Shown here in pieces: positions 52,988 through 55,936 of a stretch of DNA of 64,000 nt. The DNA is taken from NCBI GenBank assembly GCA_017512285.1, contig JAFWGU010000024.1, positions 1 through 64,000 of the forward strand, in the 5' to 3' direction. Both the position numbers and the translations under genes were made by a program. This stretch comes from Erysipelotrichaceae bacterium (lineage in GTDB: Bacteria > Bacillota_I > Bacilli_A > Erysipelotrichales > Erysipelotrichaceae). The notes under the pieces were generated by a model that did no database searches, had not been told where the DNA came from, and was given only the letters and a program-made list of their open reading frames with translations. Every line of letters starts with the position of its first letter. Positions within the stretch are counted from its first letter, which is position 1.

Positions 52988-53638
52988 ATGAATAAAACAG
53001 ATACGATTTACGATTCATCAGGATTTGTCTTACTGGCTGAATACGTTCCCCACGTCATTCAGGAGATCCGCTATCACTCAACCTACAACTTCATCGGTGA
53101 GCGCATAGACGGCTATGAGGAACCGATCGCCATTCTGACTCTGGAAGCTGCCAGAGCTCTCAAGGCCGCCAGCAATGAACTCTTCGCCCTTGGCTATCAG
53201 CTCAAGGTCTTTGACGCCTACCGCCCGGCCAGAGCCGTAAGACACTTCATTCTCTGGAGCATTGAGGATCAGGACATGCGCATGAAGCGTTTCTTCTATC
53301 CTGATCTGGACAAGCAGGAACTTTTCTCCAGAGGCTACATCGCCAGACAATCCTCACACAGCCGCGGCAGTGCCATTGACCTGACCCTGCTGGACATGAA
53401 TACCGGCAAGGAAGTCGACATGGGTTCACCATTTGACTTCTTCAGTGAACTGTCCCATCCGGACTGTCAGAGCATCACCCGGCAGCAGTATGACAACAGA
53501 ATGTTATTGAGGGACACGATGGTGAGAAACGGCTTTGAGCCGTATGAGTGCGAGTGGTGGCATTTCGTCTTAGCCGATGAACCGTATCCGGATACCTACT
53601 TCGACTTTCCCAATAACAGTAAATCATTAAGAAAATGA
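52988..53638 (+). CDS. D-Ala-D-Ala dipeptidase (VanX/DdpX family, peptidase M15D)
   Basis: This 216-residue zinc dipeptidase has the metal site SSHSRGSAIDLTL at about residues 121-133 (His and Asp), the catalytic Glu and third ligand in EWWHF near 191 and VFDAYRPARAV in the substrate region (Arg). This is the normal VanX/DdpX set. It cleaves D-alanyl-D-alanine, probably for cell-wall turnover or nutrition. There is no signal peptide, so it acts in the cytosol. No vanH or vanA/B ligase gene is near, so this is not a resistance cluster. Confidence 0.9.
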   Translation: MNKTDTIYDSSGFVLLAEYVPHVIQEIRYHSTYNFIGERIDGYEEPIAILTLEAARALKAASNELFALGYQLKVFDAYRPARAVRHFILWSIEDQDMRMKRFFYPDLDKQELFSRGYIARQSSHSRGSAIDLTLLDMNTGKEVDMGSPFDFFSELSHPDCQSITRQQYDNRMLLRDTMVRNGFEPYECEWWHFVLADEPYPDTYFDFPNNSKSLRK

Positions 53639-53670: not shown

Positions 53671-54336
53671 TTACTGACCTGTTGAGTCATGGTATCTCTT
53701 CATGATTGTATACAGCTGATTTGTCATGGCATCCAGAAGGTCTTCATAGGATTTGCTGACCAGCCACTGACCATTCTCATTGAAGACCCTGACAGGATAA
53801 TTACCGGAATCATAAGTCTTTCCGGCTCTTCTGCACGCCGTCATGGATTCTTCATAGACCTGCTGATCAGCCCTGGCCAGGTATTCATTAATAAGTTCTG
53901 AGTCTTCCTTGTTCAATGTACCCCAAATGTAACCATAGATTATTTCTGAAACGAACTCCTCACTGTAGCCATCATTTCTCATCAGTCTCTGCACTTCAGT
54001 TCGCTTCTGTAAGCTTGCCTCCTGACTGTTAAGATATAATTCCATGTATCTGCCAATGTCGTAGCCGCTGAAGCGTACGACAACATCCTTGACGTTTTCC
54101 CTGTCGGTATCACTTTCAGCGATGATCTCGTAGGAAACCTTGTACAGCATCCTGTTGATCACTTCAAGTCTTTCATCGCTGAGCTGTAATACTGCAGAAA
54201 GAGAAGACGGATCTTCCTTTATGCCGTCAAGAAATTCCATGGCTGCATCGGTTGCCGTCTTGGGTTCTTCTGATGAACAGCCGACAAGATTCATGACAAT
54301 CAGAACAGCCAGTAACAGAACTGCCGTTCTCTTCAT
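53671..54336 (-). CDS. Predicted lipoprotein, partner of the desulfurase-like gene
   Basis: This 221-residue lipoprotein has a signal MKRTAVLLLAVLIVMNLVGC with the lipidated cysteine at 20. The mature part is mostly helical (SEEPKTATDAAMEFLDGI, later TACRRAGKTYD). Residues about 35-160 look like DUF5105/DUF4352-type surface proteins of Bacillota, but this is a loose match. AGGTGG lies 7 bases before the ATG and the start lies 12 bases after the lipoprotein-type class V aminotransferase gene, so the two are surely one operon. Confidence 0.78.
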   Translation of the reverse strand: MKRTAVLLLAVLIVMNLVGCSSEEPKTATDAAMEFLDGIKEDPSSLSAVLQLSDERLEVINRMLYKVSYEIIAESDTDRENVKDVVVRFSGYDIGRYMELYLNSQEASLQKRTEVQRLMRNDGYSEEFVSEIIYGYIWGTLNKEDSELINEYLARADQQVYEESMTACRRAGKTYDSGNYPVRVFNENGQWLVSKSYEDLLDAMTNQLYTIMKRYHDSTGQ

Positions 54337-54348
54337 TCAGACCACCTG

Positions 54349-55833
54349 TTAATATTCAGGGACGGCTTCCGGATCAGACATCAGAAGTGAATTGTTCTTG
54401 GTTGCCTCAACCGTCTTGGCCAGGATCTCAATGAACTTGTCCACTTCTTCTTCGGTATTGTAGATGCCGAAGCTGACACGGATCATGCCAGGAGTATTCT
54501 TGTCAATGCAGTTTTCAAATGCGGCAGCTTCCTCATCGGAAATGCCCATCATTCTCCAGACGTACGGATGTGCGCAGAAGGCACCGCGGCGGGTAGCCAC
54601 ACCTGTGTTTTCACCCAGTTCTCTGGCCAGGATGTATGAGTTGATGTCAGCGAAGTTGAATGTTACGACACCGACTCTGTCTTCAGTATGCTCATAGTCA
54701 CCGTAGATGATGATGTTGTCAATTGTCTTGAGTCCGTCGATCATTCTGCGGATGAGTTTCTGTTCATGTTCGGAAATGGCATCGAAGCCGACTTCTTCCA
54801 GAATATCGATGGCCTTGGCCATGCCTACTACACCGGCATAGTTCGGTGAACCTGCCTCGTAGACTTCCGGAGCGTTCTTGTACTTGACTTCAGAGTCTCT
54901 GACGATCTTGACGATGCCGCCGCCATAGAATTCAGGCATGTGGGCGCTTAAGTCTTCCCATGGTCCGATTACGGCGCCGCCGCCATAAGGTGAATACATC
55001 TTATGAGCTGAGAATACCAGGAAGTCGATCGTTTCTTCAGGTGTCTCACCCTTCATTGAGAACTTGCGGTGAGCAACGATCTGAGCTCCGTCAACGATGA
55101 TCTTGGCGCCATGGGCATGAGCCATCCTGGCGATCCTGTGAACATCGGTAACATAACCGGTTACGTTTGAAGCGGCTGTTACGGAAACGTACTTGACCTT
55201 GCCTTCGTTTTCTGTCAGCAGTCTTTCGATGTCATCGTAAATGATTCTGCCCTGCTCATCTACTTCAGCGTAGATGACCTTGCAGCGCTCACGCCATGAC
55301 AGGTCATTGGCATGATGTTCCATTCTGGTGCACAGGATCAGGTCGTCTTCACTTTCAACCAGAGCGCTGGCCAGCTTGTTGAGGCCGTCAGTCGTGCTGT
55401 TGGCATAGAATACGGTATGGTAATCAGGATCGGCTCCAACGAAATTCAGAACCTTGTCACGTACTTCATTGTATATGTCGGTTGAATGGTTGGACTTCTG
55501 AGAGAAGCCACGGCCAATTGAACCGTACATCTTCATTTCATTGTCGACATATTCCATTACAGGCACCAGCGGCGGTGTGGTTGCGGCATTGTCAAAGTTG
55601 ATAAGCGGCTGAGTAGTGCCGTCACTGAGCTGTACCGGTTCGTCAACACCGACTACGTACTGTCTGATGTTATCAATGGTATAAACTATCTTTTCAGGTT
55701 CCTTGTCACCCTCATCTTCTGATGGTGTTGGCTCCGGCTTGTCAGGATCAACAGGCTTCTGACATCCGGTGACCAGAGACAGGAACATGAATACTGCCAG
55801 TAAGGTGCATAATAACTTGCTTGTTCTCTTCAT
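54349..55833 (-). CDS. Cysteine-desulfurase-like class V aminotransferase with lipoprotein signal
   Basis: This 494-residue protein begins with a full lipoprotein signal (basic start, LLCTLLAVFMFLSLVTGC with the lipidated cysteine at 24) and a Pro/Glu/Asp-rich linker (about 25-50), then a complete SufS/CsdA-type fold. The fold has INFDNAATTPPLV, NSTTDGLNKLA (PLP phosphate), MEHHAND, VDGAQIVAHR, the PLP-lysine motif FSAHKMYSPYG near 280 and ATRRGAFCAHPY with the desulfurase-type catalytic cysteine near 420. All key residues are present. The enzyme would sit outside the membrane, which is very unusual for a PLP enzyme. GAGG precedes the ATG. Confidence 0.88.
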   Translation of the reverse strand: MKRTSKLLCTLLAVFMFLSLVTGCQKPVDPDKPEPTPSEDEGDKEPEKIVYTIDNIRQYVVGVDEPVQLSDGTTQPLINFDNAATTPPLVPVMEYVDNEMKMYGSIGRGFSQKSNHSTDIYNEVRDKVLNFVGADPDYHTVFYANSTTDGLNKLASALVESEDDLILCTRMEHHANDLSWRERCKVIYAEVDEQGRIIYDDIERLLTENEGKVKYVSVTAASNVTGYVTDVHRIARMAHAHGAKIIVDGAQIVAHRKFSMKGETPEETIDFLVFSAHKMYSPYGGGAVIGPWEDLSAHMPEFYGGGIVKIVRDSEVKYKNAPEVYEAGSPNYAGVVGMAKAIDILEEVGFDAISEHEQKLIRRMIDGLKTIDNIIIYGDYEHTEDRVGVVTFNFADINSYILARELGENTGVATRRGAFCAHPYVWRMMGISDEEAAAFENCIDKNTPGMIRVSFGIYNTEEEVDKFIEILAKTVEATKNNSLLMSDPEAVPEY

Positions 55834-55936
55834 CGTTTCGTACCTCTATGAGAATTATTGCTGGAAACTAAATATTTCCCCTAAAATTTATTTTATCATA
55901 ATGAATGTTTTCATTTGAATATGTTTCAGATGAAAA

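Follow-up and report, generated by a model that had tools for sequence, protein, structure and literature searches.

A Putative Exported SufS-Like PLP Enzyme With a Lipoprotein Signal in Gut Bacillota

Introduction

Cysteine desulfurases are the textbook intracellular source of sulfur for Fe-S clusters and tRNA thiolation. The principle of an exported PLP enzyme is not new, since the broad-spectrum racemase BsrV is translocated to the periplasm (PMC7890096) and PvdN of Pseudomonas is an exported (periplasmic) class V PLP enzyme (PMC7497351). In the literature searched, from which subscription journals were mostly excluded, we found neither an exported SufS-like branch nor its joining to dockerin-like modules, and no paper combining the terms "cysteine desulfurase" and "dockerin" or naming an "extracellular cysteine desulfurase". 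Here, we describe a gene for a SufS-like enzyme with a predicted lipoprotein signal, located in a window of 64,000 nucleotides (the whole stretch of DNA that was analyzed), and compare it with its exported and cytosolic relatives.

Results and Discussion

The Gene and Its Relatives

The enzyme is encoded by a minus-strand open reading frame of 494 codons with an ATG start (54349-55833; Table 1), and the GC3 of this gene resembles that of the neighboring genes. Two other desulfurase-type proteins are encoded in the same genome, so the exported desulfurase-like copy is an addition.

Table 1. Features of the enzyme gene and its surroundings, in window coordinates.
Feature	Position	Strand	Basis or remark
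Ribosome-binding site GAGGT	55842..55846	(-)	8 nt before ATG
Predicted Sec/SPase II lipoprotein signal, residues 1-24, lipobox LVTGC, Cys24	55762..55833	(-)	Sequence and rule with controls
Pro/Asp/Glu-rich linker, residues 25-51	55681..55761	(-)	Sequence; AF2 pLDDT about 53-77
Catalytic domain, residues 52-476, SufS-like class V PLP fold	54406..55680	(-)	PF00266, PDB sequence match, AF2, Foldseek
K278, PLP Schiff-base lysine	55000..55002	(-)	Invariant
C420, catalytic (persulfide) cysteine	54574..54576	(-)	Aligns with the B. subtilis SufS active-site Cys; invariant in 105 sequences
C442, exported-clade-specific cysteine, loop after C420	54508..54510	(-)	62/64 exported, 0/39 cytosolic
C184, cysteine invariant in the exported clade	55282..55284	(-)	64/64 exported, 5/39 cytosolic
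Downstream lipoprotein, 221 aa, not a conserved partner	53671..54336	(-)	No Pfam family found; adjoins the enzyme in 2 strains only

A scan of genome contigs identified 80 loci with relatives, mostly from uncultured Bacillota, many of which derive from rumen or other ruminant-gut samples according to their record titles. There is one copy per genome in each of the 34 genomes tested. The family is rare in the window's own class (2/395 genomes); within the class to which a Clostridia carrier belongs, 48/391 sampled genomes have a family member, and each of the 28 that were read is a cytosolic form. The tree gives the main exported clade (64 rows) an SH-aLRT of 90 (100 for 63 of the 64 rows) and places it within a set of cytosolic relatives; close to it branches another exported group, which consists of L079 and L089 only. 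As read from these sequences, export was gained once or twice, or lost once.

A Desulfurase-Type Catalytic Domain

The first-pass annotation had described the protein as an intact class V aminotransferase of the SufS/CsdA type, and this description is borne out. The match to PF00266 (281 bits, E = 1.4e-83, over the gathering score) spans residues 78-467 and the entire model (positions 1-371 of 371), and both the PLP lysine (SAHKMY) and the catalytic cysteine (RRGAFCAHPY) align with those of Bacillus subtilis SufS. The AF2 model has a mean pLDDT of 88.9 and a Foldseek E-value of about 1e-33 to SufS-type structures, and the nearest solved structures, by sequence as well as by predicted fold, are SufS/selenocysteine lyase of B. 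subtilis and Escherichia coli. The score against the SufS family model TIGR01979 is 296 bits, below its cut-off of 475.1. The SufS residue set, comprising the PLP lysine, the catalytic cysteine, and the substrate arginine (R452), is aligned and invariant, as are H173, D248, Q251, H277, and R415, across both exported and cytosolic members. Judged from its sequences, the family is under purifying selection (dN/dS of about 0.01-0.2), which, along with the invariance of the catalytic residues, argues for a functional enzyme whose active site is of the desulfurase type.

Based on these features, the protein is probably a SufS-like extracellular cysteine (or selenocysteine) desulfurase giving alanine and sulfide; we infer this reaction, as well as the acceptor and biological use considered below. 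There are no suf genes beside the enzyme gene, and Tyr400 aligns where B. subtilis SufS has its SufU-docking histidine, a residue that exchanges with a SufU zinc ligand. The missing histidine, together with the lack of a conserved partner, suggests that Fe-S assembly is not supplied by this enzyme.

Alternatively, the protein could be an exported enzyme with this PLP fold that acts on some other extracellular amino acid or small molecule, with C420 kept for another reason. Its distance from characterized SufS proteins (27-32% identity) would fit such a role, as would the residues around C420 (RRGAFCAHPYVW) and the clade-specific C442 loop, both of which differ from SufS, and PvdN shows that exported enzymes with this type of PLP fold can have other chemistry. 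However, the full desulfurase residue set is invariant, including the catalytic cysteine and the substrate arginine, and cytosolic relatives adjoin DsrE-like genes: in 10 of 28 more distant cytosolic relatives (L133, L135, L145, L148, L150, and others), a DsrE-like gene (PF13686, DsrE/DsrF/DrsH-like) lies directly downstream. DsrE-like proteins are persulfide carriers, and these neighbors support a sulfane-sulfur role of the wider family. We rank desulfuration of cysteine or selenocysteine first, and a different substrate, which we consider unlikely, second.

Modes of Anchoring

The main exported clade is comprised of 47 lipoproteins, nine proteins with a signal and neither a lipobox nor an added domain, five with dockerin-like repeats, and three with Ig-like or other N-terminal regions. 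Dockerin_1 (Pfam) is over its cut-off in L046, L054, and L067 and just under it in L061, and the repeats of L070 are dockerin-like by eye, with a negative Dockerin_1 profile. Similarly, Big_2 is over its cut-off in L072 and L073, and the long N-terminal region of L063, labeled Ig, has no Pfam match. Since all of these forms occur within one clade, the mode of anchoring has switched repeatedly, whereas export has persisted. The link to dockerin-like and Ig-like domains would also fit a catalytically retired PLP fold that serves as a surface binding or structural protein, but this is very improbable given that every catalytic and PLP-contact residue checked is invariant across the exported members.

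Neighboring Genes and Candidate Sulfur Acceptors

The gap to the next lipoprotein gene is 12 bases (54336 to 54349), as had been noted before, and the two genes share a strand and both encode predicted lipoproteins, features which led the first-pass annotation to propose that they form one dedicated extracellular unit. This proposal, for which a gene-neighborhood comparison had been suggested, does not hold up, and we give it very little credence: the lipoprotein adjoins the enzyme only here and in one other strain, which has a 95%-identical copy, and no neighbor is conserved across the exported clade. As a conserved operon partner, the neighboring lipoprotein was thus rejected, its association being at the level of strains.

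No conserved acceptor protein for the exported enzyme was found in the exported clade. A DsrE-like acceptor was rejected for this genome, in which no DrsE_2 was found. A single rhodanese-domain protein was found in this genome (G000:C19; L154:1477-1896, minus strand). It is a predicted lipoprotein with the active loop CRSGNRS and is thus a possible candidate acceptor on the enzyme's side of the membrane. A lipoprotein-type rhodanese occurs in 6/7 carrier genomes of the bacterial family, although six of these carriers belong to one genus; the co-occurrence of rhodanese and enzyme is thus weakly suggestive and confounded by kinship.

Other genes near these loci were observed in the course of the comparison. 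In rumen MAGs, a lipoprotein signal is present on a prephenate dehydratase (PF00800, 1e-54; L052:1298-2272, plus strand; also in L051, L058, and L074). Its gene closely precedes, on the same strand, those of a DUF218 lipoprotein and the exported desulfurase-like enzyme, and the dehydratase is apparently another normally cytosolic enzyme that is exported. A phosphorylase-superfamily protein (PF01048), MTA/SAH nucleosidase-like and with a lipoprotein signal (LAGC), is encoded near an exported desulfurase-like gene at L050:2968-3756 (minus strand). The window itself encodes a VanX-like D-Ala-D-Ala dipeptidase at 52988-53638 on the plus strand (NF033115, 212.7 bits against a cut-off of 320), and no van cluster was recognized among its neighbors.

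Export Signal and Route

The N-terminus of the 494-aa protein (MKRTSKLLCTLLAVFMFLSLVTGC, followed by the acidic, Pro-rich linker) has the features of a bacterial lipoprotein handled by Sec and SPase II: a charged n-region, a hydrophobic core, and a lipobox cysteine within about 35 residues. The lipoprotein signal recognized earlier is thereby upheld, from the sequence itself, from a rule that is a simple hydrophobicity and lipobox test (rather than SignalP), and from shuffle controls. A hydrophobic export signal is present in 67/67 exported-side loci and in 0/40 cytosolic relatives, counts in which the exported side includes near-identical loci and the sides were assigned after viewing the N-termini; the independent supports for export are therefore the tree and the shifts in composition. 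No Met start in the 40 cytosolic relatives yields any signal, and the strict lipobox rule is positive in 47/67 exported-side loci, compared with 0.2% of shuffled N-termini.

The compositional shifts are found in the core domains, where the mean pI is 4.9 in exported members, compared with 6.3 in near and 7.0 in far cytosolic ones. Besides positions 184, 420, and 442, exported members have 1.7 cysteines, compared with about 4 in cytosolic relatives (p = 3e-11, uncorrected for kinship). This low count of variable cysteines matches the cysteine exclusion described for exported Gram-positive proteins by Daniels et al. (2010), as cited in PMC6606811. Against this trend of loss, the exported clade has kept C184 and C442. 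These do not form a strict pair, since some cytosolic relatives also have C184, as does L075, which is without C442; their role may be that of a disulfide or of a resolving cysteine. A sister strain (L008, genome G006, and L071) is without 48 nt, in frame, of the loop after C420 and thereby loses C442, which may reflect strain variation or an assembly artifact.

A mis-chosen start had been raised with the initial reading as the point on which it could fall; dozens of relatives carry export signals of their own, some with dockerin-like or Ig-like modules, and the objection therefore fails. In cytosolic relatives the start does lie near the catalytic domain, as expected if the start were misannotated or the gene were a fusion, with a cytosolic enzyme and a spurious signal, but this is scarcely credible in light of the signals in all 67 exported-side loci, the various modules behind them, the acidic shift, the cysteine depletion, the single clade, and the presence of only two possible start codons upstream of the catalytic core, of which the ATG at 55833 has a ribosome-binding site.

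With regard to the route, the signal of the 494-aa protein has no twin arginine (RR), and the search for TatC was negative in this genome and in 29 others of the 33 carrier genomes, some of which are incomplete; it was found in only 3/33. Tat export of the enzyme was therefore rejected for this genome. Because TatC was not found, the protein must, as predicted from sequence, pass Sec unfolded and gain PLP outside, in support of the earlier proposal that export precedes folding. Most exported members must likewise use Sec and take up PLP outside, with the proviso that in incomplete genomes the absence of TatC is not proof.

Proposed Mechanism and Significance

In the proposed mechanism, the enzyme would be exported unfolded via Sec, lipidated at Cys24, and would then fold and acquire PLP outside, at its predicted location on the cell surface. 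There, it would act on free L-cysteine, removing its sulfur, or on selenocysteine, removing its selenium, to yield alanine and a persulfide on Cys420. The persulfide could be discharged as sulfide by outside thiols or handed to an exported acceptor, possibly the lipoprotein rhodanese, and the benefit to the cell may be assimilable sulfide or alanine released at its surface.

A broader picture, which we offer tentatively and hold with less confidence than the desulfurase assignment itself, is that gut Bacillota, mostly of ruminants, use an exported desulfurase to strip sulfur or selenium, outside the cell, from the cysteine that feed-protein digestion releases. A lipid, a cellulosome-type dockerin, or other surface modules would anchor this enzyme, a lipoprotein rhodanese might be the acceptor, and C442 and C184 would form a disulfide or serve as a resolving cysteine in the release of sulfide. 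An exported branch in gut bacteria suggests a so far undescribed sulfur chemistry at the cell surface, and a branch of this size, tied in some genomes to modules of the dockerin type, would mean a further, unsuspected step in the turnover of sulfide, cysteine, and selenium in the rumen. It would also provide a clean model for the folding and cofactor acquisition of a PLP enzyme outside a Gram-positive cell, seemingly without the Tat system.

Comparison With Known Systems

The closest described relatives are the group II cysteine desulfurases-selenocysteine lyases SufS and CsdB of B. subtilis and E. coli, which share the fold (TM of about 0.9 of the target) and the set of PLP lysine, catalytic cysteine, His, Asp, Gln, and Arg residues. 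Whereas SufS is cytosolic, the enzyme described here has a lipoprotein signal for export and lies outside a suf operon; it further differs from SufS in the residues around the catalytic cysteine and in having a longer loop after it, which carries C442. PvdN, too, is exported and belongs to the fold type I PLP enzymes, but the similarity to it is weak (NF051467, 22.6 bits against a cut-off of 650), and PvdN, which is Tat-exported and has a pyoverdine substrate, is not a lipoprotein. BsrV is also an exported PLP enzyme, but it belongs to a Gram-negative host and, as a racemase, is unrelated to SufS. Finally, dockerin-like repeats occur in five relatives (three of them over the Pfam cut-off) as they do in the dockerin-bearing enzymes of cellulosomes, but the catalytic module to which they are joined here is a desulfurase-like PLP enzyme.
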